A DNA stretch of 28,340 nucleotides. It comes from a virus. Below are positions 1,800 to 25,659 of the stretch, in pieces. The position numbers and the translations under genes were made by a program. The stretch spans positions 1 through 28,340 of the IMG/VR virus record IMGVR_UViG_3300028837_002679; one strand, written 5' to 3'. Below the pieces are notes generated by a model. That model made no database searches, was not told where the DNA came from, and saw only the letters and a program-made list of their open reading frames with translations. The first letter of the stretch is position 1, and each line of letters begins with the position of its first letter.

Positions 1800-2279
1800 T
1801 TAGGTTGCCTTTCCCCTATTTAGTGGTGGCGCCACAGAGAGATTCCCATGTGAGACTGGCCAGGTTAGTAAAGGAGTAGAATTATCATCGTCATAAAGAA
1901 TCATGTTGCTCCCACTGAATTTCTGACCATTCCTGATCCACCGCAGTAGCAGGGCATTTAACTCGTATCCACCGAGTACGACGAATTCAATTGTATCTCT
2001 GAATTTTGTGGTTGCTGTCCCGGTATATTCTGTATATGCGGTATAGACGCCAGCAGACCAGCTTGACGTATTAACGTTCTTCTCATATTCTCCGGGCACT
2101 ACCGTAATGTTGATCTCTGCCATCTGTCCACTGATCGTTGTATGTCCGGTTGCTTTAAAGCTACTGTCATTCCAGTCATAGAAATAATCATCAGCATCTC
2201 TTTTTATCTTGACTCCTAGATCCGTGGAAGACGAAATTGGATCGCCAGAAGCATCATAAAGTCCAGCTTTGAAGTCCAT
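1800..2279 (-). CDS. Small tail/baseplate-like protein, unknown family
   Basis: 159 residues from an ATG preceded by AGGAGGAAT, a very good ribosome-binding site. The N-terminal 110 residues (MDFKAGLYDASGDPI...) look like one beta-sandwich with alternating short strands, similar in character to receptor-binding baseplate proteins that begin 'FKAG..D..G'. The last 50 residues include a hydrophobic helix (ELNALLLRWI) and then NGQKFSGSNMILYDDDNSTP, a pattern seen at the ends of phage appendage proteins. It sits between a fibre gene and a large beta-rich gene in the leftward tail operon. Function beyond virion component is not supported. Confidence 0.65.
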   Translation of the reverse strand: MDFKAGLYDASGDPISSSTDLGVKIKRDADDYFYDWNDSSFKATGHTTISGQMAEINITVVPGEYEKNVNTSSWSAGVYTAYTEYTGTATTKFRDTIEFVVLGGYELNALLLRWIRNGQKFSGSNMILYDDDNSTPLLTWPVSHGNLSVAPPLNRGKAT

Positions 2280-2291
2280 AAAATATTCCTC

Positions 2292-3083
2292 CTACGCGAT
2301 CAGCCCAAGCTCCTGAAGTCTATCTATAACAGCTATAATAGCTGTTCTAGCTTCTGCGTCTACTGTTCCGCCGCCTGTTGGATCACTTACAGTTGCAGGT
2401 TGATCTACAGCTTCAGCTCCATAGAATGATAATAGTTGATTTGCTGCTGTTCCTATTTTAGTCCCAGTAGCAGTAGCAAAAGTCAAGTTCTTACCTGCAG
2501 GCAGAATGATTTCATCGCCGCTTGGTGTAATAGTGAGATCACCGTTCGAGTCAGTTTTAATATCCGTGTAAATACTATTATCTGTATGTGTAAGTCTGAT
2601 TTGCGCAGCAGATGTATCCAGAATGTCTAATCTTCTTCGGGGGTACGAGGTATTTATGCCGATTTTCGATCCACTATCTATAACTAAACTATTTGTTCCT
2701 GCTCCACCCAGAATAACAAAGACATTTTTTCCTAGTGTGTCGTCTCTGATTCTGAATTCATTGTATGTATTGACGCCCATCTTCCATTCTTTACTACTTG
2801 TCTTAAATGAAAATCCTGCTGCACCTGAGGTAGCCGTATTCTCTACAACTGGCTCAACGTAGCCGCCATTTATGTCAGCTACAATATGTAATGTACTGTC
2901 AGGAGAATCTGTTCCGATTCCTACTCTTTCATTTTCTGTATCCACATTTAGAACAGCAGTGCTGCCTGCTGCGTTAAGTACCTGAAATAAAGTCGTTGAA
3001 TCAACTACAGGTTTTATTATATCTCCTTCAGAATTTACATAACGTCCATCAAGCACTCCATAAGGTATTCTCGTTGTTGGCAT
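2292..3083 (-). CDS. Tail fibre-like protein
   Basis: 263 residues; ATG preceded by GAGGTTGAGATC. The sequence has hallmarks of phage fibre shafts: short beta-repeats with the motif 'GIGTDSPDSTLHI' around residue 55 and 'KIGINTSYPRRRLDI' near residue 140, which recur in tail fibre and chaperone-domain proteins. A glycine-rich linker (PTGGGTVDAEA) leads into a C-terminal helix (ARTAIIAVIDRLQELGLIA) that is probably a trimerisation coiled coil. No intramolecular chaperone or enzyme motif is visible. The gene lies just after the tail spike and a small coiled-coil protein, so it is probably part of the same adhesion apparatus. Confidence 0.75.
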   Translation of the reverse strand: MPTTRIPYGVLDGRYVNSEGDIIKPVVDSTTLFQVLNAAGSTAVLNVDTENERVGIGTDSPDSTLHIVADINGGYVEPVVENTATSGAAGFSFKTSSKEWKMGVNTYNEFRIRDDTLGKNVFVILGGAGTNSLVIDSGSKIGINTSYPRRRLDILDTSAAQIRLTHTDNSIYTDIKTDSNGDLTITPSGDEIILPAGKNLTFATATGTKIGTAANQLLSFYGAEAVDQPATVSDPTGGGTVDAEARTAIIAVIDRLQELGLIA

Positions 3084-3093
3084 GATCTCAACC

Positions 3094-3282
3094 TCATTTT
3101 GTTACGATTCTTATCTCAGTTGCTTTTATTAAAGCTATGCCTTCGATCTGCACGTTATATTTGACCAAAATCTCGTTAATTTCTAAGGTAGCTCTCCTTA
3201 TTCTTTCTTCTTCGAGATTCTTTGCTTCCTCGGCTAAATTTCTTTCCTTTTCCTCATTTTCTTCTTTTTCTCGCATTTCCAT
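3094..3282 (-). CDS. Small charged coiled-coil protein
   Basis: 62 residues. Residues 1-40 are almost entirely Glu, Lys, Arg and Ala in heptad-like spacing, predicting a long coiled coil; the last 20 residues (VQIEGIALIKATEIRIVTK) look like a short beta hairpin. The ATG is preceded by AAGGAGTGA with tight spacing; a second in-frame ATG two codons on has better spacing from the same site. It sits between spike and fibre genes and could be a connector or an assembly chaperone for one of them. No family recognised. Confidence 0.6.
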   Translation of the reverse strand: MEMREKEENEEKERNLAEEAKNLEEERIRRATLEINEILVKYNVQIEGIALIKATEIRIVTK

Positions 3283-3289
3283 TCACTCC

Positions 3290-5941
3290 TTAGCTTCCTA
3301 CGTAAACTTTTATCCAGGACGAACCATCGTATACAAAATATCCTCGCTCGTCTTGAGCTACTGCTACAGCAATTCCGCCGGAATCTACAGTTAGAGTTTC
3401 AGCAGCGTCCGCGGTATTTATTACCCAGATTTCTGCGCGTTCAGGGAAAGCTCCTGATGGATTATAATTTCGTGGAGCTCCTCCAGGATCTATGAGATGG
3501 AGTTCACCATCCCCATACGTGAACGTACCATGCGCGCTTAAAGTTTCGGTTTTGCCACCACGTAAGGAATTTCCAGATACCCGGAAATTTCCCTCGAGCC
3601 CCCTAGCATCGTTGAACGTGAGCGGAGCGTGATCCCCCTCGACTATGGTTATTCCGTCGATGTAGCAGTGATCGCCTGGGGAAATGCTTTGCGCGCCAAT
3701 ATAAATTTTCGGATTAGTCCAGCCCGCCGCTCCCGCGAACAAAAAACTTTCCTGGCAAGGAGTCCAGATTTCTGCATCTATTGAAAAAGTATGTCCTATT
3801 GTTGTGCCGCCATCATAGCCAATAGCGATACGCGGGTTAAATCCGGCTGTGGCCGGCTTGTATGCCCAGAACCTGACCGTGAATGCTTGCGGGAAGAATG
3901 TCTCCGAGCGATCGTATTTGGAGGCATCAACTGTATATTTGATATTTGCTGAAGTTTGCCCTGCAACACAGATCACTTTGGCGCTTCTCTTGTTATATTT
4001 CACTATTGTGGATTCCTCCAGGATTGTGGCTGCTGTTGGATGGCCAACAAAATCCAGGGGTTGATTTGCGTCATTCCACACTTCTAGATCGCCATCACAC
4101 ATGTTGCGGACATGGCTAGTTGGGAAGAAGCTACCATGTCCTCTGAGCACATCATTAGTGACATTCCAATTACCTGACCATTCAATACTTTTGGCCTTCA
4201 GATCTATACTCCCGTATGCTGAGATATCATATTTGCAATTTTTAACTTTGATATCTCTGCAAGTTGAGCTTATCGTTATCCCACCATACAGATAACAGTT
4301 TTCAATGCTAGTTCCCTTGCATCCAGTTACGGTAAATCCAGGGGTAAAGCATCCTCTCACGCTTGCGCCTGTACATGATACTAACTCGATTGGGGCAGTT
4401 CCTTCCAGGTGAGTTCCGATAATAGTTGTACCAAGGCCAAATGTCGTGATATAAATCCCTTTGCCCCCGCTCGTCTTCATATATTCGATGCAGCCACCTA
4501 TAATGACGCAATTGGATTCGCTTTTCCCAACGCCACTGAGATTTATTCCACACACTGATGTGTTACCACCCTGGAGAGTAGGTTCTATTATAGTGAGGGC
4601 GTTAATAGCTTTTCCCCCTCCAACCTCTCCGTAGATATAAGCCTGGGTTGTAGCACCTACCGAGTGCCAACAACTCGTGGTGCTCACGGGATGTTCGATA
4701 AGTACGAATAAAGCCCCATAAAGCGCAATTCCATAATATCCTCCCTGCAGCCATACGTTCCGAATTATTCCGTGGCTCATTGAAGCATCGACACGAAGCA
4801 AGCATTTGCCGGCAGTGGTTTGCTCCCCTGCCAACATAATATTCTCGACTCCAAAATTCCCCGCACCTGTGAAATGAAATAAATTGAGGTTATTCGCGCT
4901 TTGATAGATTTGCGAAAATGGGCCATCTCCTTTGACCAATAGATTCTTAGTGATATCAAGCTCCCCTGAGATGAGATAGTTCCCACGAGGGACATATAGG
5001 ATACTTCCGGTAGTGGCTGCGGCGATTGCAGCTTGGAATGCTGCTGTCTCATCTGTTACACCATCTCCAACTGCTCCGTAGTCAAGTACATTAAAGATTC
5101 CGGGAGAGCCTCCAGGAGTTGCTAAGAAGTTCTGCCAGGCTCCTCCAGAATTTCTATATTCCATCACTCCGCTATTAGATCGGATTCCAAATCCAGGAGC
5201 TCCCTCCACAGTATCCCAGTTCAGATAATTATCTGCTGGCAGCTTCGCTCCGCTAGAGTGAATAGTGAGTCCAGTTTCGCTACTATTGAATAACTGAAGG
5301 CCAGCTCCATTTCTCGCACGGATCTCGTCCGCTATTATTTTTTTGCCATCTCCGATATCCCAGTCGGCTGTTAGGGCAATTGTGCCATCCTTTTTCAGAA
5401 CAACAGAATCCGCCGCCTTTGCATTCAACTGCGTTTGTAGAGCTGAAGTAACACCGTTAAGGTATTGATATTCCGCGTCTGAAACTGAACCATCTGCAAT
5501 TTTCGCAGCATCGATAGCTGTCGGCAAGTCTTCAGCTTGTATGCTCCCCCATGCTGCTGATGCTGCCCCTGTAGCGCGCAATACCTGGCCGATGGATAGA
5601 CCCGACAAGTCCAGTAGGTTTACCTCTGCCGCTGTAGCTGTTACATCGGTAGCGCCACTGGATAGAATATGTGTATGACCACCCCCGCCTACAGCATCAT
5701 CCACGTATTTCTTTGTAGCTGCGTTTAGATCAGCCGACGGAGCACCTGAAAGTGTTAGTAGTCCTGTCATTGGCCTGGAGCCATCCGCTTTTAATACGCT
5801 TTCTTCGTTCGCCTTGCTATCTATTAGATTTTGAGTGTTGAGTGGAATTTTACCTATAATTTCTCGATCTCGGTAGATTATAACCTCACCCGTTTCTTCA
5901 GAGCCCTCGATTTTCTTTATTCTTTGTATTTTTCCGTTCAA
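3290..5941 (-). CDS. Tail spike with right-handed beta-helix (pectate-lyase-like fold)
   Basis: 883 residues from the TTG at 5941, which overlaps the stop codon of the upstream gene (TTGA) with GTGAG about 10 bases upstream; an in-frame ATG 18 codons earlier (5995) would overlap that gene by 58 bases, so I prefer TTG. The N-terminal 100 residues contain 'SRPMTGLLTLSGAPSADLNAATKKYVDDA'-type repeats (key residues MTG...L.AATKKYVD), typical of phage fibres that attach to the virion. Near residue 285 the sequence FNVLDYGAVGDGVTDETAAF marks the start of a Pectate_lyase_3 beta-helix, which runs about 300 residues. A jelly-roll-like region and a C-terminal beta domain follow. Such spikes bind and often cleave host polysaccharide; the catalytic residues are not identifiable by eye. 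Confidence 0.88.
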   Translation of the reverse strand: MNGKIQRIKKIEGSEETGEVIIYRDREIIGKIPLNTQNLIDSKANEESVLKADGSRPMTGLLTLSGAPSADLNAATKKYVDDAVGGGGHTHILSSGATDVTATAAEVNLLDLSGLSIGQVLRATGAASAAWGSIQAEDLPTAIDAAKIADGSVSDAEYQYLNGVTSALQTQLNAKAADSVVLKKDGTIALTADWDIGDGKKIIADEIRARNGAGLQLFNSSETGLTIHSSGAKLPADNYLNWDTVEGAPGFGIRSNSGVMEYRNSGGAWQNFLATPGGSPGIFNVLDYGAVGDGVTDETAAFQAAIAAATTGSILYVPRGNYLISGELDITKNLLVKGDGPFSQIYQSANNLNLFHFTGAGNFGVENIMLAGEQTTAGKCLLRVDASMSHGIIRNVWLQGGYYGIALYGALFVLIEHPVSTTSCWHSVGATTQAYIYGEVGGGKAINALTIIEPTLQGGNTSVCGINLSGVGKSESNCVIIGGCIEYMKTSGGKGIYITTFGLGTTIIGTHLEGTAPIELVSCTGASVRGCFTPGFTVTGCKGTSIENCYLYGGITISSTCRDIKVKNCKYDISAYGSIDLKAKSIEWSGNWNVTNDVLRGHGSFFPTSHVRNMCDGDLEVWNDANQPLDFVGHPTAATILEESTIVKYNKRSAKVICVAGQTSANIKYTVDASKYDRSETFFPQAFTVRFWAYKPATAGFNPRIAIGYDGGTTIGHTFSIDAEIWTPCQESFLFAGAAGWTNPKIYIGAQSISPGDHCYIDGITIVEGDHAPLTFNDARGLEGNFRVSGNSLRGGKTETLSAHGTFTYGDGELHLIDPGGAPRNYNPSGAFPERAEIWVINTADAAETLTVDSGGIAVAVAQDERGYFVYDGSSWIKVYVGS

Positions 5942-7045: not shown

Positions 7046-7657
7046 TCATACTACAGATAGCATTGGCTTTCGATTGATGAATCGATCTAATAATCGATCA
7101 GCTTCCTCTACGCCCGTCAGCGGTTCTACATCTGTTCTATAGCTTTCTCCACCGATTTCCTCCTGCCCCTGAATACGGTGGGTATAAAGCGTAGGGTCAT
7201 TCTCATCCCGGCAGAGGATAATACACGCTTCCTTTACATTTTTCGGGCAGGTGCTTTGCCCATAAGTTCCTGTCACGTGGATATTTCCTATTCCTTCGGG
7301 AAACAGCCCCCCGGCATGTTGCCTGAGAAGCCAGCGAAGCTCCGGGAAGGAAGCAGCGCTCCCGGGATCCCGGTATATGAAGTCCTTATCGTGTGTGTAG
7401 TAATCAGATGACAATTCTACTCCAGATATCTCTATCTTGGTTATACTTAGGATATCCGGCTTGAGACCCAAGCAGAGTCTGTCTTTCCCATTTCCATCCA
7501 TGTAGATATCGAAGCTGGCTGCGTAGAACAGATCTTCTGTCACTGCCTCGGCCAGCTCCTCGATTCGATCGATAACCGCCTGCTTTTCTGCCTCCGTGGC
7601 TCCGGCAGGCCAGTTATCAACATCAGTCTCACTCACGTAGTTCCCTGCGGCTGCCAT
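7046..7657 (-). CDS. Head-tail connector (gp6/gp15-like adaptor)
   Basis: 203 residues. The N-terminal part (SETDVDNWPAGATEAEKQAVIDRIEELAEAVTEDL) fits the helical start of phage gp6-like or SPP1 gp15-like adaptors, which begin with 'a...dl..w.....' and a helix bundle. The middle (ILSITKIEISGVELSSDYY) is the characteristic beta insertion, and the C-terminal helix (EEADRLLDRFINRKPM) is also typical. Its start region overlaps the end of the 111-aa gene by 29 bases. The adaptor binds under the portal ring and extends the DNA channel. The call rests on pattern and on the order connector, closure, tail protein. Confidence 0.75.
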   Translation of the reverse strand: MAAAGNYVSETDVDNWPAGATEAEKQAVIDRIEELAEAVTEDLFYAASFDIYMDGNGKDRLCLGLKPDILSITKIEISGVELSSDYYTHDKDFIYRDPGSAASFPELRWLLRQHAGGLFPEGIGNIHVTGTYGQSTCPKNVKEACIILCRDENDPTLYTHRIQGQEEIGGESYRTDVEPLTGVEEADRLLDRFINRKPMLSVV

Positions 7658-10360: not shown

Positions 10361-11143
10361 TTATATCTCTATACTGGGAAATAGATCTTCGTCTTTCTCG
10401 TCTTCGTCTTCGTTATCCTCCAGATCCCGCTTTTTTCCCTTCATTTTTTCCAGTTTTTCCAGCCGTGAATCGATCTGCTTCAGAACTTTCATCACCTTGC
10501 CTGTTTCCTTATCCTCTTCTTCGTCCTCCTCTTCGTCCTCCTCTTCATCCTCGGGCTCGGCAAACAGCTTATCATGCATTTTCTGAAGCATCTCAAATGC
10601 CACCTCGTCTTTATCCTTTTCTTCAGCCATCTTCTTTATGTCATCAGGAAGCAGCTCATCGACCAGCTTCCGCATAGCCAGCAGCTTCTCGAGCGTGGCT
10701 TTGGACAGCTTCTTCCCAGCTTTCTCCAGATCGCTCTCTTTTTCCTTTTTTTCTTTCTTCTCGTATGGCTTCGGGTAGGGATATTTGGTGGTTGCGTACT
10801 TTACCAGGGTATCAACTGCTTCTTTCGCATCGTCGGGTAGAGCATCCTTGTACTCGTTCAGGATCTTCAGCGCCTCTTTGATCGCGTTGACTACCTTCTC
10901 CGTCAGCTTTTCAGCCTTCTCAATATCACCCTCGTCCTTGATTTTCTCGTCGAGGAACGCTTCCAATAGTTCTTTCAGCTCCTTATCCATGATTTTTACC
11001 TCTTTCTTCTGCTCTTCGTCAGTCTCATGTTCTCCGTGAGCACTTTTGAAAAACAGGAATGTTTTCCGGTTCGCCGGAGTCTTCACAAAGGAAACCTCTC
11101 TGAGTTTGATATCTCGGAGTTCCCTTCCTTTCTTAAATTGCAT
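10361..11143 (-). CDS. Capsid scaffold protein carrying an XkdF-like protease tail at its N-terminus
   Basis: 260 residues, ATG preceded by CCGGAGGTAACTTAA. Residues 52-240 are highly charged and helical with an acidic run (EDEEEDEEEDEEEDKE, about 170-195) and a final coiled coil (LKQIDSRLEKLEKM), a typical capsid scaffold. The N-terminus is different: LREVSFVKTPANRKTFLFFK (about residues 14-34) matches the 'EVSlVd.PAn' segment that normally ends XkdF/Peptidase_S78_2 head proteases. That protease is otherwise encoded by the separate gene at 11643-13523, which stops just before this segment would be expected. An internal in-frame ATG with its own ribosome-binding site at residue 52 could yield the scaffold alone (see separate entry). 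Confidence 0.78.
   Translation of the reverse strand: MQFKKGRELRDIKLREVSFVKTPANRKTFLFFKSAHGEHETDEEQKKEVKIMDKELKELLEAFLDEKIKDEGDIEKAEKLTEKVVNAIKEALKILNEYKDALPDDAKEAVDTLVKYATTKYPYPKPYEKKEKKEKESDLEKAGKKLSKATLEKLLAMRKLVDELLPDDIKKMAEEKDKDEVAFEMLQKMHDKLFAEPEDEEEDEEEDEEEDKETGKVMKVLKQIDSRLEKLEKMKGKKRDLEDNEDEDEKDEDLFPSIEI
10988..11003 (-). promoter_or_regulatory. Internal ribosome-binding site and start inside the scaffold gene
   Basis: AGAGGT (11003-10998) lies 7 bases upstream of an in-frame ATG (10990-10988). Initiation here would give a 209-residue scaffold lacking the N-terminal XkdF-like segment, analogous to lambda Nu3 nested in gene C. Confidence 0.45.
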
Positions 11144-11149
11144 TTAAGT

Positions 11150-11382
11150 TACCTCCGGCATCCTAAAAAAAAACGGATGCCAGCTTAATCGGTAATCCAA
11201 CCAAGCCCAGGCATCCGCCCATATTCACACTCGAGACCGCGACGTGAGGAGAAATTATCTCGCGTCTTTTATCTCTGATCCTGGCTTCAGGACTTACGCA
11301 CGGAGGAAACGAAGGCCAGCGATTTTAAGTCGACTTGCCCCCGTCTCCTCCGTCTGTCTTGCGACCTTATTCATTTATAAAT
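11150..11382 (-). ncRNA. Structured 5' leader RNA of the scaffold-capsid operon (attenuator candidate)
   Basis: About 230 bases between the minus-strand promoter and the scaffold start. In RNA order it holds: a stem ACGGAGGA/TCCTCCGT (11353-11346 with 11307-11300) whose loop contains one arm of a second stem (11319-11311 with 11288-11281, one bulge), so the two cross and form a potential pseudoknot; a GC-rich hairpin around 11230-11270; then GGATGCC (11216-11210), GGCATCC (11181-11175), nine T, and GGATGCC again (11163-11157), directly followed by the GGAGG ribosome-binding site. The middle GGCATCC can pair with either flanking copy. Pairing with the first makes a terminator; pairing with the second makes a competing hairpin. 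It matches no riboswitch class I know. Confidence 0.6.
11165..11217 (-). terminator. Intrinsic terminator within the scaffold-capsid leader
   Basis: On the minus strand an 8-bp stem CGGATGCC/GGCATCCG (11217-11210 with 11181-11174) encloses a further GCTT/AAGC pairing and is followed at once by nine T (11173-11165). This is a strong rho-independent terminator shape placed before, not after, the scaffold gene. Confidence 0.75.
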
Positions 11383-11384
11383 TA

Positions 11385-11413
11385 AATATACCAGATCGTC
11401 TGTAGAAAGTCAA
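11385..11413 (-). promoter_or_regulatory. Sigma-70-type promoter for the scaffold-capsid operon
   Basis: On the minus strand -35 TTGACT (11413-11408), 17-bp spacer, -10 TATATT (11390-11385). The 10-bp palindrome ATTTATAAAT (11382-11373) lies at the predicted transcription start. It sits in the intergenic space after the 67-aa gene, so the capsid operon can be transcribed independently of the terminase operon. Confidence 0.7.
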
Positions 11414-11642: not shown

Positions 11643-13523
11643 TTACATTGTCGCTTTGCCTGCCATGGAGTAACCTGTGATCTCACCAGATTTTATCTTC
11701 TTCCATAGCTCGTTTGAAATTATTCTTGTTATTAGAACCCAACTGCCTTTTCTTACAAATTCGCCTTCGATGGTTAGATCGCAGGGTGCTAAATAGGTTT
11801 CGAGAATTTTCGCGATCGTTTCTTTCCCGAAAGCCCACGTAATAGAAGCTCTAATATGATTCGTTCCGAATCTCTGGACACGCTCCATGAAATCGTAGGC
11901 TGCCTTTCTAATTTCATCCGCGCTTGCCTGGTCGCCCTGGGCGTCTTCTTCATTGGGGGAATATACAACACCGCAAACTATATGTTCCTCATCATTCTTG
12001 CTGATGTCAAAGATTTTCACGAACTTCTGAAGTACTTCCTCGCGTTTCTTATCCCAGAGCTTTACCTCATTAGTTTTGGGAGGTTTAGTTTGCATGTATT
12101 TTTGCGCTTCCAGATAACATTTCCAGTAGCTTGAGCTGAACTTCTCATCTCCAATTTTCGGAGGCATAACAGGGAAATAGATATTACGCAGCGCATCAAC
12201 TATCTTCGCGAAGTATCGGAATATATCCTCCAGTATCCACTCTCCCCATTCCTTGCCAGCCGATAGCCGGGGATAACCGGCATTGCCCAGGTAACGGAGA
12301 TCGGCTTGCAACTGCCTCCAGCGCTGTTTAGGATTATTCAGGTCCTCGTCAATTTCTTCCTGGCGGAACTCCTCCAGATTTAGCTTGGTGAAAGTTTCGC
12401 TCAGAGCATTTTCTATTTTTTCGCTCAGCGAACTCCACCATTTTTCCCAGCCCCCCTGGCCGTAGTAGGTCTTTCCTGCTACTACGATCCTCGGTCTGCC
12501 TTCCATCCCTTCGTCGGAGAGCGAATATAACTCCGGCTGATGTGATAGAGCTGCGCTTATTTCTTTTGCTCGACTCTCGTCCTCTTTCAGCCGGAAAACT
12601 ATATAGGCGACTCTCTCTTCGGAATGTCCTTCGCAGCTTGCTCGCAGCTCGATTCCGGGGATAGCATTTAATTTCTGCATCCATTCGCATTTGATATGCT
12701 CATCTACAAAGGCGCCATCGCATTCATGCTCAGCTCCGCCAGTTCTGCCAGGGAGCCACTTGGTTTCGCCGTAGACTGCTTTGTACGCCAGGGAGGGACT
12801 ATTTACTTTCTCTGTACGAGAAAGCTTCTTCTGTAGCTCTTCTACATCGATCTCTACTTCAATCAGGGCTTCCAGGACATCTGGATTTTTGTTCTCCTTG
12901 TGATCTCTATGGGCTTGCCCATCACAGGCTTTGACCCATACTATATCACTTGATTCCATGCCCAGCTTGAACTTTTCCCTGACTTTTTTCCTGATGAATT
13001 CAATAGCATGTTTTCTGCAGAACCATACATGCCCCATCCCTTCGGCCCATAGCATTTCAAATTCGGGAGGTTTTTCACAACTCATGCACCTTGATCTTGA
13101 ATACTCTTTGTAGAATCTCTCTGCAAATTCTGGCTCATTTATCTCCCGGATTTCATCAGGCTCATGAGGGACCAGAACCAGATCCCACAGAGGCTTATAC
13201 CTCCAGTTGGGCCCGGTCATTGCTGCGGTCCAGGAGGTGGAGTCACAACCCAGGAGATCCTCCATTACTCTATCAACTTTCAGCCGGAGCCCTGCATCAA
13301 GCTCGACCTTGAACCCATCACCACTCTCCTCTGCCCGAACTATTACATCCACGTCGCCCGGCTCCCTGCTATCCCGTTCGTACATAGTGGAGCCAGCAAG
13401 GGAAACGAACTCCGGGATCCAGACGAAGGATGGAAGCTCTGAGCTATCCAGATCATCTCCCTCCGCCTTCTCAAACTCTTTTTCCCCACGCTCTGTCATC
13501 ATCTTGATTTCTGAAAGTTCCAA
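11643..13523 (-). CDS. Nucleotidyltransferase-like / zinc-finger / XkdF-type head protease fusion
   Basis: 626 residues from a TTG with AGGAGGTGAGAG upstream. Residues 33-120 look like a DNA-polymerase-beta-type nucleotidyltransferase: G43-S45 (AGST), D57-V-D59 (GDVDVIV) and D114 (LWDLVLV) would be the G-S and three acidic positions. Residues 146-172 hold C-x2-C ... C-x2-H, a probable zinc site. Residues 240-390 are a Trp-rich region I do not recognise. Residues 510-626 match the putative phage serine protease XkdF (Peptidase_S78_2): 'VVYSPNEEDAQGD', H556 in GTNHIR, 'FVRKGSWVL', and S619 in GYSMAG, the likely His and Ser. The protein stops 7 residues after S619, before the usual 'EVSxVxxPAN' segment, which is found in the scaffold gene instead. 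Confidence 0.75.
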   Translation of the reverse strand: MELSEIKMMTERGEKEFEKAEGDDLDSSELPSFVWIPEFVSLAGSTMYERDSREPGDVDVIVRAEESGDGFKVELDAGLRLKVDRVMEDLLGCDSTSWTAAMTGPNWRYKPLWDLVLVPHEPDEIREINEPEFAERFYKEYSRSRCMSCEKPPEFEMLWAEGMGHVWFCRKHAIEFIRKKVREKFKLGMESSDIVWVKACDGQAHRDHKENKNPDVLEALIEVEIDVEELQKKLSRTEKVNSPSLAYKAVYGETKWLPGRTGGAEHECDGAFVDEHIKCEWMQKLNAIPGIELRASCEGHSEERVAYIVFRLKEDESRAKEISAALSHQPELYSLSDEGMEGRPRIVVAGKTYYGQGGWEKWWSSLSEKIENALSETFTKLNLEEFRQEEIDEDLNNPKQRWRQLQADLRYLGNAGYPRLSAGKEWGEWILEDIFRYFAKIVDALRNIYFPVMPPKIGDEKFSSSYWKCYLEAQKYMQTKPPKTNEVKLWDKKREEVLQKFVKIFDISKNDEEHIVCGVVYSPNEEDAQGDQASADEIRKAAYDFMERVQRFGTNHIRASITWAFGKETIAKILETYLAPCDLTIEGEFVRKGSWVLITRIISNELWKKIKSGEITGYSMAGKATM

Positions 13524-13529
13524 TTTCTC

Positions 13530-13925
13530 TCACCTCCTGCTCAGCAACCCTCTCTTCTCGCCATCCATATAGAATCTGCAATTTCTCAAAACGTCCATGC
13601 CCAATAGCCCTATTTCCAGGTTCTTCGGAACTATGCCGCATCTGGACTGTAAGGTTCCCAGGCCCTCAACGTAGATACCACAACCAAATGTCTTAACTCC
13701 CTTTTCCAGCCTCCCATCTCCGTATACCAGGTTAACCATACCAATTTGGAATACAGGCGTGATTTCCCGGAACGCAGTTGCAGGAACGATTGTCACGTCC
13801 GCGCCAGTATCAATCCGGGCCGCAAACCAGGAGCTGCGTTTCCTATTGTAGCCTACTAAGCAAGCTCTCATGAAGTATCCATATTTTGAACCTTCGACTT
13901 TTCCTATCTGGCATGTTATTGTCAT
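13530..13925 (-). CDS. Retropepsin-like aspartic protease, second copy
   Basis: 131 residues. The active-site signature R-I-D39-T40-G41-A-D (RIDTGADVTIVPA) and the second conserved turn GLLGMDVL (about 106-113) are the two hallmarks of clan AA retroviral-type aspartic proteases, which act as dimers because each chain supplies one Asp. Length fits a single-lobe retropepsin. The ATG has only a modest GGTGG upstream. Its stop lies inside the ribosome-binding site of the XkdF-fusion gene (AGGAGGTGA), so expression is probably coupled. It is a paralogue of the gene at 14313-14783. Likely substrates are head precursor proteins, by context only. Confidence 0.78.
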   Translation of the reverse strand: MTITCQIGKVEGSKYGYFMRACLVGYNRKRSSWFAARIDTGADVTIVPATAFREITPVFQIGMVNLVYGDGRLEKGVKTFGCGIYVEGLGTLQSRCGIVPKNLEIGLLGMDVLRNCRFYMDGEKRGLLSRR

Positions 13926-14134: not shown

Positions 14135-14347
14135 TCAAACTTCTCTTGACATGAACAGAGTATCTGCAATCATTGCTATCGCTACAGGATCTGGAGTAAT
14201 CTTCCACTTATCGAATTCTCGGCCGTAACCTTCGATAAAAAAAGCATCCTTCCACGCGTCCATAGCGTCCCGAAGGCATTCAGCCATTTTCTTCTTGTAG
14301 TCTTTCTTCTCTTCAAGCTTTTGCTGTTTCTTTTCTGCCGTAGTCAT
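14135..14347 (-). CDS. Small charged helical protein, unknown
   Basis: 70 residues from the ATG at 14347, which has GGAGG 8 bases upstream; a TTG five codons earlier is less likely. It overlaps the end of the first retropepsin gene by 35 bases. Residues 1-30 are Lys/Glu-rich and helical (TTAEKKQQKLEEKKDYKKKM), followed by AMDAWKDAFFIEGYGREFDK and a C-terminal helix. No family recognised; it lies between two protease genes in the head operon. Confidence 0.55.
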   Translation of the reverse strand: MTTAEKKQQKLEEKKDYKKKMAECLRDAMDAWKDAFFIEGYGREFDKWKITPDPVAIAMIADTLFMSREV

Positions 14348-14783
14348 AGTATTTTCCTCCAAAGGATTTCACCTCCTCCGCTTTCGCTAGTATGCCATTA
14401 CCACCTTCCAACACCATTATGAACTGATCCAGTATATCCAGTCCAAGAAATCCAAACTCTTTGTCAATAACGGATATTCCTTCTACAGGGTGGAAGATTT
14501 CATCTATCCCATCTATCTTAATTCCACATGAGATTGTTTTTACATCTTCAAATTTGCCATTCGCCAGGAGTACATTTTTAGGTTCATTATATAGATTTAT
14601 TCCTATCTCATTTACTGCGGATGCAGGGATTATAGAGGTATCTGCGCCTGTATCTACTCGCATGAGGAAACTGCGGCTCTGCTTTCTTCCATTGCAAGCA
14701 TGGGCTTTAACGCAAGGGCCTCTGCTGGTCATTCCGGGCATCTTCATTTTCTTAATTTTTACTAACCGGCGCTTTTTGCCCAT
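14313..14783 (-). CDS. Retropepsin-like aspartic protease, first copy
   Basis: 156 residues from ATG 14783; a TTG seven codons earlier is possible. R-V-D44-T-G-A-D (RVDTGADTSIIPA) is the catalytic motif and FGFLGLDIL (about 111-118) the second conserved turn of clan AA retropepsins. The N-terminus is basic (MGKKRRLVKIKKMKM). The C-terminal 25 residues (AKAEEVKSFGGKYYDYGRKE) closely match the end of the upstream ligase-like protein (VKAEEIKAFGREHYKYGQKA), also at DNA level. The start lies inside the 3' end of the ligase gene and the end contains the start of the 70-aa gene, so all three are likely translationally coupled. Placed among portal, XkdF protease and scaffold, it probably cleaves virion precursors; no cleavage site can be named. 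Confidence 0.78.
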   Translation of the reverse strand: MGKKRRLVKIKKMKMPGMTSRGPCVKAHACNGRKQSRSFLMRVDTGADTSIIPASAVNEIGINLYNEPKNVLLANGKFEDVKTISCGIKIDGIDEIFHPVEGISVIDKEFGFLGLDILDQFIMVLEGGNGILAKAEEVKSFGGKYYDYGRKETAKA

Positions 14784-17325
14784 ATTTATAGTGCTCTCTG
14801 CCAAAGGCTTTAATTTCTTCCGCTTTTACTGGATAGTAGTATCCGCCGTCTTTGTGCTCCACCGGATCCTGCGGAAGAGGTTCGGAAGTTGCTTTCCATG
14901 TCTCCCACCGAGCGCCGTCCTTATCCCGCTTCAAACATTTGAAAACGAATCGTTCATTGAAAAAACTTTTGTTTCTTTCCGGAAGGCCTGGCCCCGGGTA
15001 TAAGAAATATTCGTGATAGTCTTTTCGCTGGATCCCGGATTTTACTCTTCCTTTCCAGATCAGCCCCATCCAGGAGTAAGTATGTGCAGTAGCACCCACA
15101 CCACCAGGAGGGATCAGGTAGCTGCCGCTTGTTATCTGGATCTCCTCCAGCATCTTTGCGCCCTCAGCCGAAATTGTAAGCTCTTTCTTTTCGCTTTCCT
15201 TTCTGAGTTTCTGCGGTTCTTCTGCTGATGGTTTCACCACGGCCATGCTGTGCTGCACATTCTTCCCGCCGGCAGTTTCCCGAAGTTCACCTTTCAGGTA
15301 TCGCATATAAGAGGGGATATCGTTATCAAGGATAACCCATTGTATCAGCTTCTTCTTCCCTAGATCCATCCGCAGATCCACGTGGATGGAATGGCCTTCC
15401 ATCAGCTCAGCCAGGGAGAGCTGCTTCTTTTCGTACTTCTCCACTTCTTCTGGCTTCAGACCACGAATATGCGTCTGAGCCCAGGCATCGCCTTCCTGGT
15501 AATCCGTATAGAACTCCTTCGGGAGCGGCTCTCCAGCTTTAGCATATTTCTTATATATCGGCTTAGGAATTTTGCCGTACTCAATGCTAGCTTTCACCGC
15601 ATCCTCCACGGTCGCCTTGCCTCTTAGCTCTCTCTCCGTGAATAGTGCTTTTTTCATCTGTTCTCTGCGGGCTGTCATCTCCGAAAGTCTCTCCAGGACC
15701 TGCATGGTATCCGGTGATTTCCGCTCAGGTACGGGCTGCATCACCACTGAGACGTAAGCTTTGAAATACGGTTTCTCCGGGTCGTCTGTCTTAAATCGGT
15801 TTACATCTTCCGAAGCTACCCGAAGTATACTTCCGATAGCTACTTTTTGCTTCGTGTTATCCGATTTCCCAATGTAGTTATATTTTTTCTCACCATATTC
15901 CACAACAGCTTTTTCATTCTTTCGTTCAATGGCGGATGCCCATTCTGGCGAAAGAGGTCCCACTGCCAGTGAATAATTCCAATTATCAGTCCTTTTCCCT
16001 TCTCGAATGATCTCATGTTTTCCCACCACCAATGTGTCTATCTCAAATTTTTCTTTGAATTTACACCACGACTTTCCTGAATAAGGTGCGTCCAAGAGCT
16101 TTATCATCGCCCCCTCGGATATGAATTTAGGTGTTGCTTTCATTACCAGCTCCATGGCTCTCTCTGCCGCTGAGACCGGAACCACATAAGATAAAGCTGG
16201 GCTGGTAAGTGTTATTACTGGTCTGACGAATTTGATATGTTCGGTATCTTTGAATTTTTCCAGAGCTTCCTTTCTCTCCTTCAGCGGCCAGGTCCTGGTG
16301 GAGTTTCCGTCCAGTTCGAGAATATCAAATACGTATACTCTTGCTCGTTTGCTCTTCTCTGTGGGATCGAACTTGCCGTTTATCAGCGCATTAATAGCGG
16401 TCCGATGGAGGACCTCATCACCATTCTCGCTGAGCATGACGATCTCAGCGTCCAGGACAAAGTTATCGTTATACATTTTTTCTAGCTCAGCGATCTGATA
16501 TGGGAGCCGTTCCGTCTTATCAGGAGTGGAAGTCTCCTCCGGGTCGGTGAAGATTATCGCTTTGCCACCATGTTTTTCCAGCCTGGTTCTCACGCCATCA
16601 AACTTTGCTTCAGTGATTACTTTCTGCTGCTCTTCCTGGAAGCCAGGGGTGTTTTCCAGGTCCTCCACCTCGAATATTCTGTATCCGGGTTTTTCCAGTT
16701 CCCATTTCAGCTTCGCTTTTTCTAATTTCACATCCTTGTTTTCAGGGAAAACAACATCCTGGATGAAAGTCTGAACGCCCTGGGGTACTGCTATACCCTT
16801 TGGGGTGTCATATCTCTCTTGCACAGTGAACTCATACGCGTAGAGAGATTTCTTACCAGGCCACCACGCTTCCCGCTCTTTTTCTGATATTTTGTGATCA
16901 CACTTTAGCTTCTCAAATTCTTTGAGGGAGATCCGTTTCGGCACTTTCAGCTTGATCACTCCATAAGCTTTATCTTCTGAAACCAGAATGAGCGGCTTCC
17001 CCACCATTCCTTTGAAAGCTCGTGCTTTAACGATCAGGGTCTTCTCGCCTTCCCAGATCCATCGACCGTGAGGTGGGACCAGGTAGATCCCCTGAAGATT
17101 TTTGTCTATCTCCCATTTGGAATAAGGGATTTTTCGCTTGTCGAACTCAGTCATTAGCAAATTGTATTTGGCCTCCAGATCCTTCTTGTCTATGTGTATC
17201 AGTTGCTCTTTCTTTTCCAAGGTATCGTACTTGCGAAACAACTGACGGCAGCGCAGCCGAAGCTCTCGCAAGTCGCTGTTTGACAATCCGATCAATGTCT
17301 CATGGGAGATGTCTTCAATTCGCAT
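14752..17325 (-). CDS. ATP-dependent DNA ligase with N-terminal ASCH/PUA-like and C-terminal LigD 3'-phosphoesterase-like domains
   Basis: 857 residues from ATG 17325, preceded by GGAGGAAGAAAAGGAAA and overlapping the portal stop by 11 bases. Residues 80-168 (HGRWIWEGEKTLIVKAR...) resemble ASCH/PUA-like folds. The ligase core shows motif I K241-F-D-G-V-R, motif III FVLDAEIVM (289-297), IIIa VYVFDI (330-335), IV EGAMIK (404-409) and V WCKFKEK (420-426), then an OB-fold (IGSILRVASEDVNRF, about 497-535). K241 should be adenylated by ATP. Residues 645-660, HSIHVDLRMDLGKKKLIQWV, resemble the H-x-D-x-R...W core of the LigD 3'-phosphoesterase domain. The last 150 residues (SGSYLIPPGGVGATAHTYSW) are an extra beta-rich domain ending in the tail shared with the retropepsin. 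A ligase between portal and head protease is unusual; nick sealing of packaged or ejected DNA is inference. Confidence 0.8.
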   Translation of the reverse strand: MRIEDISHETLIGLSNSDLRELRLRCRQLFRKYDTLEKKEQLIHIDKKDLEAKYNLLMTEFDKRKIPYSKWEIDKNLQGIYLVPPHGRWIWEGEKTLIVKARAFKGMVGKPLILVSEDKAYGVIKLKVPKRISLKEFEKLKCDHKISEKEREAWWPGKKSLYAYEFTVQERYDTPKGIAVPQGVQTFIQDVVFPENKDVKLEKAKLKWELEKPGYRIFEVEDLENTPGFQEEQQKVITEAKFDGVRTRLEKHGGKAIIFTDPEETSTPDKTERLPYQIAELEKMYNDNFVLDAEIVMLSENGDEVLHRTAINALINGKFDPTEKSKRARVYVFDILELDGNSTRTWPLKERKEALEKFKDTEHIKFVRPVITLTSPALSYVVPVSAAERAMELVMKATPKFISEGAMIKLLDAPYSGKSWCKFKEKFEIDTLVVGKHEIIREGKRTDNWNYSLAVGPLSPEWASAIERKNEKAVVEYGEKKYNYIGKSDNTKQKVAIGSILRVASEDVNRFKTDDPEKPYFKAYVSVVMQPVPERKSPDTMQVLERLSEMTARREQMKKALFTERELRGKATVEDAVKASIEYGKIPKPIYKKYAKAGEPLPKEFYTDYQEGDAWAQTHIRGLKPEEVEKYEKKQLSLAELMEGHSIHVDLRMDLGKKKLIQWVILDNDIPSYMRYLKGELRETAGGKNVQHSMAVVKPSAEEPQKLRKESEKKELTISAEGAKMLEEIQITSGSYLIPPGGVGATAHTYSWMGLIWKGRVKSGIQRKDYHEYFLYPGPGLPERNKSFFNERFVFKCLKRDKDGARWETWKATSEPLPQDPVEHKDGGYYYPVKAEEIKAFGREHYKYGQKAPVSKN
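16729..16757 (-). repeat. Copy of the dispersed 24-bp palindromic-core repeat inside the ligase gene
   Basis: The core GTTTTCAGGGAAAAC (16738-16752) is the reverse complement of GTTTTCCCTGAAAAC, and flanks match too: read on the minus strand it runs from GATGTT through the core to AAGGATGT, nearly identical to 25583-25612 on the plus strand. It is translated in frame as DVVFPENKDV, between the ASCH-like and ligase domains. Confidence 0.7.
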
Positions 17326-18760
17326 TTTCCTTTTCTTCCTCCATGTATTTGCCCCATTGAACTCCGGCGGCATCAAGCACGTCTACAGGAATTAAGCTTC
17401 GATTCATATAGAATCTATCCCCAAGCGGATACGGCTCGCCCAGGTCCAGTGTGCCCCTTGCCTGGTTGGGTGTTTCCAACCCATGTTCTATTCTTTTACA
17501 GTGTCTATCTAATTCTTTGTCTTCATCCTCTGTATCTAGCTCGTTCAGTTCCCATTTATAGGACGAACATCCAAGGCCTTCTTCTAGGAGCTTCCTGTTC
17601 ACTATATTTTCTACATCCTCCTGTAGGGGATTCACAACGCTTTGTTTATAGATTTTAGTTGCCTCTTCTGCGATATTTCCGCCTAATCTGCCGACTATTG
17701 CGATCCCTTTTCTGGAGGGCGGCATAGAATACGATGACCAAATGTCCTCCCTGTATAACTGAACCATCAACCTGAAGCTTCCTTCCTTCGATTCTACTGA
17801 GAGTTTTTGTGCTTCGATCTCCCCGCCGGTGGGAAGTTGCAGGACCAGGGTTTTATGGGCGTTGTCTGAGCCTTTAACTTCTGTGTTCATGAAGTTACGG
17901 ATTTTCTGATCGCTGCCTGGTTTCCACTTCCCGGTGAGTGTTACCATGTAGGTGGGAACTCCGTAGCTCTCGAAAAATGAGATATTGTAATCTCTCGCGC
18001 CGATCAGCAGTATCACGCTGCCTACTGCGGGCAAGATTAGCGGAACACCGTAGTGGATGTACCTGGGATGATGTCTCCGATAGAATATCAGCTCGTTAGC
18101 CGCATCTTCTATATCAAAGCTCCCCTCTTCTCCTGTTTTGGGTGAGATTTGTATTGGATCGTCATCTCCATCTTTCAGGCCGAATTTCTTGAACCATAGC
18201 TCCTGTGATCCTCGCCGCCGGCAGTATTTCCGGCCGGATCTGTGGATCCACATCTCGTAAGCCGCGGTATCGTATATCTCCACTACCTCGCCGCCGGCGT
18301 TTCGTACCACCTGAAGAGCCCAGTAACCCAATACTCCCCAATCAATCATCAGTGCTTCTAGAATCCCCCGCAGAGAATCGTCGGGATTTGGGTGTTCCAG
18401 GAAGGCCTCTATTTTCTCTCGCTCTTCTTTGTTCTCCTTTTTGTCTTGCTTTAGTTGCAAACTCCCTCCGAGTCCAGCTATGTCGCTTGCGATCTGGTTC
18501 ACCGTCCCCGCGAAGATTGGATTGTGATCATAGAGTGCGAGAAAGGATTCCGGTTCGTAGGGCCTGGGACGCAGATCCAGACCAGAATACCAGCTCTTTT
18601 CCTCTTCCAATTCTTTCTTGCCTTTGCTTATCTCGAACTCCCGCAAGGTTTTGAATGGAACCAGGCTTTGTGCATCTGTGTAGATAAACACCTCGCCCAC
18701 GATCTCCTCCGGCTGGTGAATCTCAGGCTCTTTCCACACGAATGGATTGCGGATTTTCAT
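17315..18760 (-). CDS. Phage portal protein (PBSX/XkdE-like family)
   Basis: 481 residues; ATG preceded by AAGAAGGAGGCATCTAA. The N-terminal region (FLALYDHNPIFAGTVNQIASDIAGLGG) is the typical portal start 'l..l.e.np...r.I...a.di'. Residues 120-165 (LRGILEALMIDWGVLGYWALQVVRNAGG) are the usual 'l...G.a.le..rd..G' segment. HHPRYIHYGVPLILPAVGSVILLIGARDYNISFF around residue 235-270 gives the 'YG.s.l..a...i......yn..ff.n' stem signature, and MPPSRKGIAIVGRLGGN the later helix. Portals of this type occur with XkdF proteases, as here. The dodecameric portal is the DNA gate and packaging motor base. Overlaps the ligase start by 11 bases. Confidence 0.88.
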   Translation of the reverse strand: MKIRNPFVWKEPEIHQPEEIVGEVFIYTDAQSLVPFKTLREFEISKGKKELEEEKSWYSGLDLRPRPYEPESFLALYDHNPIFAGTVNQIASDIAGLGGSLQLKQDKKENKEEREKIEAFLEHPNPDDSLRGILEALMIDWGVLGYWALQVVRNAGGEVVEIYDTAAYEMWIHRSGRKYCRRRGSQELWFKKFGLKDGDDDPIQISPKTGEEGSFDIEDAANELIFYRRHHPRYIHYGVPLILPAVGSVILLIGARDYNISFFESYGVPTYMVTLTGKWKPGSDQKIRNFMNTEVKGSDNAHKTLVLQLPTGGEIEAQKLSVESKEGSFRLMVQLYREDIWSSYSMPPSRKGIAIVGRLGGNIAEEATKIYKQSVVNPLQEDVENIVNRKLLEEGLGCSSYKWELNELDTEDEDKELDRHCKRIEHGLETPNQARGTLDLGEPYPLGDRFYMNRSLIPVDVLDAAGVQWGKYMEEEKENAN

Positions 18761-18792: not shown

Positions 18793-19965
18793 TCAAGTAT
18801 TGCGAATACCAGCCAACCTCCGAGTGACGAGAAGAATAGTATTCCCTTGCCAGTGATCTTTAGCGCGTCTATTCAGGAATTTCATGCCCTCTTCTTCTGG
18901 TTCAACTTCTGCTCCGCCTACATAGGGTAGAACCGGATAGCCTTGCTCTTTAAGCCTATCGTAGGGGCCTTTCCCCAGACCAACAACGTCGATGTTAGCT
19001 GACTCTGGCTCATATTTTTCTATCACCATAGCCAGCTCTCTAGCAGTCTGCATTGTATCTTCAAAAGAGGAGCGATGCACAATTCTCGCCACAGGCCCCC
19101 AGCGCATTACCGCCACGGTCATATTTGCTCCACCAGCGGCAATATCGATCCCCATGCGTTTGGGTGAGGTTGCTTCGCATTCACGATACATAGCTGCCTT
19201 AACCCATTTGTATGGGAATACTAAGTAACTTTCCAGCATTGCCTCCCAATCGCTTTCCAGGTAACGGAGCACCCACTCTTCTGGATATAACTCTCTGAGC
19301 CGTTGTTCATAATCGGGTGGGAGATGAGGATTGTCCCGTGGTAAAGCTTCCACGTAGCGATGATCAGGTAGATCCTGGTCGATGAACCTGGTTTTCAGCC
19401 ACCCGGGCTCGGGATTTCCTGCCAGCAAGCCTCGATACCGGATGCCGGGCGCCTTTAGTCTCAACCTGCTGCATAGCATAAGGAAGACATCTTCCGGAAC
19501 TTCGCCTGCCTCGTCTATAGCAATCCAGCCAAGCGACAAAGATCCCAGGTGCTTGAGAGGATCGCTACCAGCGGAAGGTTTCAAGCCACCGTAATAAATC
19601 TCTGAGTTGTTGATCAACCTATACCATTGCTCGGCTTTGTTCTGTTGTGCTACTATTTCATTTGGAAGAAATTCCTGGAAGGTCTTGAAGGTGGTTTTTT
19701 TGAATATCCTGTTTTCCCATCTGCAGATGAGGCCCCGATTATTCGGGGTGTCCAGGGAGAGCTGTATGCCTTCGGTGCTGAGGAAAACCGATTTCCCGCC
19801 GCCCACCGCACCGCCATATAAGAGATATAGCTCAGGAGCGGTGTGGGCAATACATTGTTTCTCGGTCGGCCTATATATCTGACTCAGATCTATTGTTGTT
19901 GTTTTCCCTGAAAACATTGTCGTTGCTTTCTCTGAAAACAATGTCTTTGTTGCCACTGAAGCCAT
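18793..19965 (-). CDS. Terminase large subunit, apparently truncated at its C-terminus
   Basis: 390 residues from ATG 19965, chosen because GAGGAAT lies 9 bases upstream; an ATG at 20031 lacks a good site. Walker A GGAVGGGKS (51-59), Walker B/coupling WIAIDEAGEV (D151, E152) and the LLAGNPEPG motif (about 180-188) define the packaging ATPase. The nuclease domain starts at MGIDIAAGGANMTVAV (D274) with a second acidic strand ANIDVVGLG (D326). After FLNRRAKDHW the protein ends quickly (...LAGIRNT), 30 bases before the portal start. The usual last nuclease helix with an Asp ('SPD.aDAl' type) is missing. Residues 6-24 are encoded by the 24-bp repeat array. The enzyme would pump and cut concatemeric DNA; cutting competence is doubtful. 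Confidence 0.85.
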   Translation of the reverse strand: MASVATKTLFSEKATTMFSGKTTTIDLSQIYRPTEKQCIAHTAPELYLLYGGAVGGGKSVFLSTEGIQLSLDTPNNRGLICRWENRIFKKTTFKTFQEFLPNEIVAQQNKAEQWYRLINNSEIYYGGLKPSAGSDPLKHLGSLSLGWIAIDEAGEVPEDVFLMLCSRLRLKAPGIRYRGLLAGNPEPGWLKTRFIDQDLPDHRYVEALPRDNPHLPPDYEQRLRELYPEEWVLRYLESDWEAMLESYLVFPYKWVKAAMYRECEATSPKRMGIDIAAGGANMTVAVMRWGPVARIVHRSSFEDTMQTARELAMVIEKYEPESANIDVVGLGKGPYDRLKEQGYPVLPYVGGAEVEPEEEGMKFLNRRAKDHWQGNTILLVTRRLAGIRNT

Positions 19966-24202: not shown

Positions 24203-25183
24203 ATGGCGGAAGAGGATCAGACTGAAAAACCACAGTTTAACTACTTTCGTATGAAGAAGGCCTACTACGAACTTGGGATCCACCAGGAGTTGGGGTTGGT
24301 TAGTCATTCCCTCTTCCTCGCTCTTCTCCATAAAGCCAACAACCTTCACTTTCCCCGTTTTTTCAGAATATCTGGTAGAGAGTTGGCAGATCTCGCTGTA
24401 TTATCTGACCGCAGTGTGCGCCTGGCCAGAGCTAATCTGATTAAGTTTTCTATCAATAATTTGCCTCTGGTACTATATTGGAGAGGAAATAGAGGGAAGG
24501 CTCCAACTTTTGCTATTATCTATGAACTTCTGGATCTTGAGGCCAACCACGATGAGGTTGAAAGAAAAATAACTGAACTGCGTTTGATCATGGTTGAGAT
24601 GAAAAAGTGGGAAAGCCCTGCCAAAAAAGATGGGAGCCAAGATGACTTAGCGGCACCACATGCCGCTAAGTCGGAGAAAGCGGCATCTCATGCCGCTAAA
24701 GATAGCGGCACCACGTGCCGCTATCCCCCACTTAGCGGCATAGTTAGCGGCACCACATGCCGCGATCCTAACAAACTATTGGGATCTATTAATACCCCTC
24801 TTCCCATTAATGATATCTCTATGGGGGAAAACGAAAATGAGAATGTGGGGGAAGAAGGGGAAGAAATTCTTTCAAAAAGGAATAAGACGGAAAAGGAAAT
24901 CCAGGATATAATATTGCAGCTTGCTCAACACAGCGTCAAAAGCGAGAGGGTTGCAACGCAGTTAGCGAAGAAGTATACAACGTCATTTATTTACCGCCAC
25001 ATCATGCAGGTTAAACACGATCATAGAAAGGGGCAGCACTGGAAAGATCCCGGCGGGATCCTCGTAGCCAGGATTAGGAAAGGGGATCCCACTCCGGATT
25101 TTCCGCCTGAAGAGTACCCAGAATCTGTTTACGTGCAGAAATTTGCAACGGATGATGGAATACCACGAGCTTCAGAGCCATAG
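24203..25183 (+). CDS. Replication initiator / replisome organizer with internal origin repeats
   Basis: 326 residues; ATG preceded by AGAGGGAAATAAG. Residues 10-105 (FRMKKAYYELGIHQELGLVS... RISGRELADLAVLSDRSVRL) are a winged helix like those of phage and plasmid initiators and DnaD-type helper proteins. Residues 150-235 form a low-complexity linker, part of which is encoded by palindromic iterons (24646-24764). Residues 240-310 (EIQDIILQLAQHSVKSERVA... WKDPGGILVARIRKGDPTP) match the C-terminal helical domain seen in such initiators, ending with the 'nPgG.L..rlr.G' motif. It probably binds the iterons in its own gene and recruits the host helicase, as lambda O does. It heads the rightward early operon. 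Confidence 0.75.
   Translation: MAEEDQTEKPQFNYFRMKKAYYELGIHQELGLVSHSLFLALLHKANNLHFPRFFRISGRELADLAVLSDRSVRLARANLIKFSINNLPLVLYWRGNRGKAPTFAIIYELLDLEANHDEVERKITELRLIMVEMKKWESPAKKDGSQDDLAAPHAAKSEKAASHAAKDSGTTCRYPPLSGIVSGTTCRDPNKLLGSINTPLPINDISMGENENENVGEEGEEILSKRNKTEKEIQDIILQLAQHSVKSERVATQLAKKYTTSFIYRHIMQVKHDHRKGQHWKDPGGILVARIRKGDPTPDFPPEEYPESVYVQKFATDDGIPRASEP
24646..24764 (+). other. Candidate replication origin: four palindromic iterons inside the initiator gene
   Basis: Each iteron is GCGGCA-N5-TGCCGC with extended arms. Iteron 1, 24646-24670: arms CTTAGCGGCA/TGCCGCTAAG (10 bp). Iteron 2, 24679-24697: 7-bp arms. Iteron 3, 24702-24724: 9-bp arms. A half site CTTAGCGGCA lies at 24731-24740. Iteron 4, 24747-24763: 6-bp arms. 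The 5-base centres are CCACA, TCTCA, CCACG, CCACA. AT-richer DNA with two ATTAAT motifs follows at 24765-24825. This closely mirrors the lambda origin inside gene O. Confidence 0.7.
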
Positions 25184-25554: not shown

Positions 25555-25564
25555 TAATGATGTC

Positions 25565-25612
25565 GTTTTCCCTGAAAACTATGATGTTGTTTTCCTTGAA
25601 AACAAGGATGTT
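25565..25612 (+). repeat. 24-bp palindromic-core repeat, two units
   Basis: Cores GTTTTCCCTGAAAAC (25565-25579) and GTTTTCCTTGAAAAC (25589-25603), exactly 24 bases apart, in the gap between two genes. Same family and plus-strand orientation as the array at 19901-20003; the second unit with its flanks nearly matches the copy in the ligase gene. Confidence 0.8.
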
Positions 25613-25659
25613 GTTGGGTGTCATGACGTTCGGAATTGTGGGATGTCAAGGGGAACAAG

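Follow-up and report, generated by a model that had tools for sequence, protein, structure and literature searches.

The platforms of SAM-I and lysine riboswitches contain an antiterminator/terminator pair, and an anti-antiterminator can hold the antiterminator strand. In BglG/LicT and ANTAR systems, a short antiterminator overlaps the terminator 5' arm. The lambda pR'-tR' leader (Q antitermination) and the HK022 put RNA combine a promoter, a leader RNA and a terminator before late genes. Attenuators with mutually exclusive structures are a known kind of regulatory element (PMC3369936). Riboswitches encoded by phages are described as rare, and the glutamine riboswitch of phage Melnitz belongs to a known class tied to a tmRNA gene (PMC9004378). 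In the open-licence literature, no RNA attenuator was found described before phage head genes.

The DNA analysed here, referred to as the window, is the whole 28,340-base virus record IMGVR_UViG_3300028837_002679, from an environmental phage. Its minus strand carries a unit composed of an extended -10 promoter, a structured RNA of ~214 nt, a terminator with nine T residues, GGATGCC, GGAGG and the ATG of a scaffold gene (Table 1). The elements named in a first-pass annotation, GGCATCC included, were all located on this strand. On balance, the leader appears to act in cis as a three-state transcription attenuator that controls the scaffold and capsid genes, judging from its sequence and that of two relatives. 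It resembles SAM-I and lysine attenuators in the order promoter-leader-terminator-gene, in the pairing of an upstream strand with the terminator 5' arm, and in a possible anti-antiterminator. In contrast, it has no conserved sensor domain or Rfam match, and it would control phage head genes. As in BglG/LicT and ANTAR systems, its antiterminator overlaps the terminator 5' arm and could be stabilised by a protein, but it is in two parts, contains bulged G residues and is interrupted by hairpins, and no regulator of either type was recognised among the window proteins scanned (Pfam, PHROGs). The arrangement also recalls the lambda and HK022 leaders, except that in the window a conserved alternative pairing is built into the RNA. 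GOLLD and ROOL are likewise structured phage RNAs, the role not being known for either; RNAs of the window type are shorter (214-550 nt), lack an Rfam match and have a terminator directly before head genes. The Melnitz riboswitch is phage-borne regulatory RNA too, whereas the window RNA is unmatched and precedes capsid genes. The window and its two distant relatives, which keep this switch with matching mutations, suggest that production of the virus head is under a form of RNA control not described so far.

Table 1. Features of the leader and of its neighbouring genes in the window, in order of transcription
Feature	Positions	Strand	Basis
XkdF-type head maturation protease, C-terminal part, upstream of leader	11643..13523	-	PF14550, E 6e-30
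Sigma70-type promoter TTGACT-17-TATATT, TG before -10 hexamer	11385..11413	-	sequence; equivalent place in L002 and L049
Variable 5' domain: small GNRA hairpin and 17-bp hairpin (11353-11300)	11298..11378	-	folding
GACUUA, complement of left antiterminator strand; may be an anti-antiterminator or form a pseudoknot	11326..11331	-	found in 3/3 5' domains
Left (antiterminator) strand GUAAGUCCUGAAGCCAGGAUC	11277..11297	-	shared 7-mer, consensus pairing, nascent-RNA folding
Extra hairpin inserted in antiterminator loop, window phage only	11233..11275	-	folding/alignment
Intrinsic terminator: 5' arm GGGCGGAUGCC..., loop GGAUUACC (11198-11191), 3' arm GGCAUCCG, T9 (11173-11165)	11165..11220	-	hairpin and T-run
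Second GGATGCC, probable partner of the 3' arm freed on read-through (CUGGCAUCC:GGAUGCCGG)	11157..11163	-	duplex test, antiterminated fold
Shine-Dalgarno GGAGG, 8 nt before ATG at 11143	11152..11156	-	sequence
Scaffold-like head protein, 260 aa	10361..11143	-	PHROG head maturation protease family match at N-terminus
Major capsid protein, 372 aa	9187..10305	-	phrog_1623 virion structural protein, E 2e-41

The genes on either side of the leader belong to head formation. The scaffold-like protein is acidic, directly precedes the capsid gene and is 48% identical to the L002 protein. The capsid protein matches major capsid proteins of GenBank phages, with 63% identity in L002. Upstream, a 67-aa ORF lies between the XkdF gene and the leader promoter in the window phage. 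A capsid search of IMG/VR yielded one phage contig, L002, the nearer relative, which shares the gene order over most of the window, and a ligase-profile search yielded the second relative, L049 (one contig with L054). Both carry a promoter, a structured RNA and a terminator between the XkdF and scaffold genes. The promoter alone is not beyond chance (3 found in a 3 kb scan vs 2.8 expected); its location matches in L002 and L049, 7-12 nt past the XkdF stop codon. The transcription start of the window leader would be near 11378.

The RNA that follows the promoter is structured, as had been proposed: over ~214 nt its folding gives a z of -5.3, with none of 200 shuffles as good, and its two 150-nt windows rank 2nd and 3rd among 188 on the minus strand. 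The leaders of the relatives reach z values of -6.7 and -7.5, for RNAs of about 360 and 550 nt. The 5' domain spans 81 nt in the window, 249 nt in L002 and 457 nt in L049; these domains differ in length and sequence, with little in common beyond GACUUA. In the window, a 26-codon ORF starts at 11374 inside the leader, with no evident L002 counterpart. An Rfam search of the window brought no family to threshold (T-box was absent even up to E 5), and a lax search of the leaders returned sub-threshold microRNA/UTR matches only, one microRNA in the case of the window. No Rfam riboswitch, GOLLD or ROOL family matched, and a tRNA/tmRNA search found none. A small-molecule riboswitch, one form that the first-pass annotation had envisaged, is thus unsupported: the 5' domain, not being conserved, argues against it, and the candidate signals that remain are a protein, a host factor or polymerase kinetics.

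The terminator hairpin (-31.1 kcal/mol) contains GGATGCC at 11216-11210 and GGCATCC at 11181-11175. It can be aligned across the window, L002 and L049, so that an intrinsic terminator stands between the promoter and the first gene in all three phages. In the window and L049, there is no room for a further promoter after it. Four of its pairs are maintained by changes on both sides. Its 5' arm, GGATGC(C)TGRGCTTG, and its loop, RGATTAC, are nearly invariant, and its 3' arm varies. This uneven conservation would arise because the arm and loop pair twice, in the terminator and in the antiterminator; no strong alternative pairing site for the conserved arm was found elsewhere in the phage.

The partner of the 5' arm and loop in that second pairing is an upstream strand, GUAAGUCY...YCAG(G)AUC, and the pairing is present in 3/3 phages. 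GUAAGUC is the sole 7-mer common to the three RNA bodies, with 5 copies in total, three of them in L049, and a shuffle frequency of 0.0005. Pairwise local alignments that ignore folding pick GUAAGUCCU-GAAGCCAG between the window and the third L049 copy, and CAGGATCA(G)AGATAA between the window and L002; singly they are weak (p 0.29 and 0.046), yet they are collinear. In L049, the left antiterminator strand recurs within the leader as a 30-nt direct repeat (87%; 7451-7480 and 7603-7632). The core alignment of the three sequences was chosen by sequence similarity and built partly by hand, with two loop hairpins handled as insertions. From it, RNAalifold returned the helix between the upstream block and the 5' arm and loop, not the terminator. 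This helix consists of GUAA:UUAC, UCY:RGA, YCAG(G):(C)CUGR and AUY:RAU; its bulged G residues occupy corresponding positions, and the phages have 18, 15 and 19 standard pairs in it. When compared with column shuffles, three versions of the alignment gave consensus z values of -4.35, -3.9 and -3.2 (p 0.002, 0.006 and 0.004); in two of these versions no bases had been removed.

Covariation in the stems across related phages had been put forward as one test of such a switch, its absence counting against the idea. Compensatory changes were seen in the stems of the three phages, so this refuting outcome did not arise. The R of TGRGCTTG and the Y of YCAG form G-C in the window and A-U in L002 and L049, and the R of RGATTAC and the Y of GUAAGUCY form G-C, G-U and A-U in the three phages. 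Furthermore, a paired deletion in L049 removes one C from the arm and one G from the left strand. The upstream antiterminator is thus mutually exclusive with the terminator and maintained by compensatory change in these three sequences, more weakly in the full L002 leader, where the GUAAGUC half is mostly paired elsewhere. Duplex energy between the 5' arm and the leader is by itself not better than shuffles, and the case for the antiterminator therefore rests on the comparative test.

Folding of the growing RNA follows the same alternation. In RNA truncated immediately ahead of the 3' arm, the window and L049 adopt the antiterminator as their minimum-energy fold, and L002 forms it in part. With the 3' arm added, the terminator prevails and the left strand reverts to a local hairpin, GUCCUG:CAGGAU in the window; the left strand alone folds there as GUCCUG-AAGC-CAGGAU (11293-11278). 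In read-through RNA, the terminator fold is more stable by 12-13 kcal/mol in the window and L002, and by ~3 in L049. Being disfavoured energetically, the ON state must therefore be kinetic or bound and stabilised.

A terminator within a late operon would, as can be reasoned, require a means of read-through, and a leader of the lambda pR'-tR' type would offer one: its promoter and terminator would be constitutive, its read-through would depend on modification of RNA polymerase by an antitermination protein of the phage, and its folds would be incidental. The promoter, the short leader and the terminator directly before structural genes are what such a leader would present. We regard it as unlikely, the conserved alternative pairing and the strong structure being unexpected under it. 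Moreover, the window leader sits amid the head gene cluster, between the protease and scaffold genes, and no Q- or N-like protein was recognised among the window proteins scanned (Pfam, PHROGs), a scan that covers part of the ORFs of a possibly partial record and concerns proteins that diverge fast.

The attenuator reading was originally attached to a different pair of hairpins, in which the 3' arm GGCATCC chooses between the upstream GGATGCC, forming the terminator, and the downstream GGATGCC, forming a hairpin at the ribosome-binding site. Both pairings exist: in the window, pairing of GGCATCC with the downstream copy is beyond chance (p 0.000-0.002 vs shuffled downstream sequence), and L049, where the copy is partly kept, holds a weaker counterpart (p 0.016-0.043). 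In L002, the copy is absent and the duplex is no better than shuffles (p 0.57). The downstream GGATGCC was rejected as an antiterminator, being transcribed after the T-run and missing in L002; it cannot decide termination because the polymerase is already past the T-run when it is made. The terminator hairpin also beats the downstream pairing, -31.1 against -15.9, and the choice as first drawn is highly improbable. The best-supported reading remains an attenuator that alternates between exclusive hairpins ahead of the scaffold and capsid genes, with the upstream pairing in place of the one named at first.

The downstream pairing is more readily placed in the ON state. In window read-through RNA constrained to the antiterminated fold, the 3' arm is captured and AGGU of the ribosome site is unpaired (0.87-0.97); L049 also shows this capture, and L002 lacks it. 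In the terminator fold, part of the ribosome site is covered. In these models, the downstream GGATGCC is probably an accessory of the ON state that captures the freed 3' arm in 2/3 phages.

A third layer may be provided by GACUUA, which each of the three phages has in its 5' domain (joint shuffle frequency 5e-5). In the window it lies in the loop of the 17-bp hairpin, at 11331-11326, and its complement UAAGUC at 11296-11291; this pair is the potential pseudoknot noticed at first reading, and GACUUA recurs in both relatives. In nested folding, GACUUA holds the left strand with a probability of 40% in L049 and not at all in the window and L002. On steric grounds, GACUUA:GUAAGUC and the full 17-bp hairpin of the window should be unable to form together. 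GACUUA may sequester the left strand in the OFF state.

Under the attenuator reading, polymerase would initiate at the promoter just past the XkdF gene and make the structured leader. In the OFF state, the left strand GUAAGUC...CAGGAUC would be held locally (GUCCUG:CAGGAU in the window) and possibly also by the upstream GACUUA(C); the terminator hairpin would form and a short RNA would be released. In the ON state, the left strand would pair with the terminator 5' arm and loop, so that no terminator forms and polymerase could proceed into the scaffold and capsid genes. In 2/3 phages, a sequence immediately ahead of the ribosome-binding site would then capture the freed 3' arm, so that AGGU stays open. 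Candidate triggers are a phage protein, a host factor, or the state or kinetics of the polymerase. We infer from the RNA sequences that termination and read-through take place in the cell and that the pairings alter them, as well as the direction of control. If this is true, the amount of capsid made by the phage would be set by a single RNA fold. Individual bases for mutation can be read from the conserved core, and the variable 5' domain offers a starting point from which to look for the signal. Tentatively, the leaders could further represent a new phage sensor RNA family, a three-state switch of GACUUAC, GUAAGUC and the terminator arm. Such a switch would respond to a signal from the phage or its host, of which a head protein and a host factor are possible examples, and would adjust the synthesis of capsid and scaffold through transcription read-through, its core being conserved and its 5' sensor domain exchangeable.

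In about thirty more distant XkdF relatives the unit is absent, and the next gene follows within some tens of bases, mostly ~13 nt after the stop; in L012 and L013, an endonuclease-like ORF occupies the gap between the XkdF and scaffold genes. No DNA relatives of the leader were found in GenBank phages and plasmids. A DNA-pattern search of IMG/VR gave, beyond the two relatives, matches without the terminator and GUAAGUC context, and a stricter pattern had no matches in genomes. A covariance-model search of other loci returned nothing convincing, with one match in L022 at E 0.38.

This gap, which accepts inserts and in most XkdF relatives lacks the unit, bears on the main rival to the attenuator, a stand-alone phage non-coding RNA gene that acts in trans (as decoy, antisense, packaging or structural RNA) and whose position before the capsid genes is inherited. 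Such a gene would have its own promoter and terminator and the high degree of structure measured in all three RNAs, and could accommodate the three GUAAGUC copies and the 30-nt repeat of L049. It is possible but doubtful, since it needs no double pairing of the terminator 5' arm with compensatory changes. In two phages, ~20 nt separate the terminator from the ribosome-binding region that follows; strand and place are identical in 3/3, and no Rfam family is matched. These points also argue against a stand-alone gene, and the cis-acting attenuator is preferred.

Several other features of these genomes may be mentioned. An ATP-dependent DNA ligase, encoded between the portal and protease genes (window 14752-17376), is common to both relatives. 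The best matches of the window portal are methanogen viruses, although the promoter and terminator look bacterial. Two related ORFs (window 13530-13925 and 14313-14804) both match one region in L009; the former resembles a retropepsin-like aspartyl protease, under the Pfam cut-off. On the minus strand, ATGCCATAATGATGCCA is repeated in an intergenic stretch (14145-13950). Inverted tandem repeats of TTAGCGGCACCACATGCCGCTAA lie at 24648-24723, within ORF 24203-25183; no other 150-nt segment of the minus strand of the record is as structured (z -7.8). A 24-bp tandem repeat with the palindrome GTTTTCCCTGAAAAC is found at 19892-19960 and again at 25556-25615. In L013, XkdF (1904-4507) is interrupted by an intein-like insert, beside the endonuclease-like ORF of the gap (4441-5418). 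No hammerhead ribozyme reaches the Rfam threshold in the window; two of type II exceed it on the minus strand of L010, from the contig of L002 (18259-18194 and 16621-16557). Finally, L049 contains an intergenic region of ~400 nt with long hairpins (12045-12448; z -6.1 for the segment at 12099).
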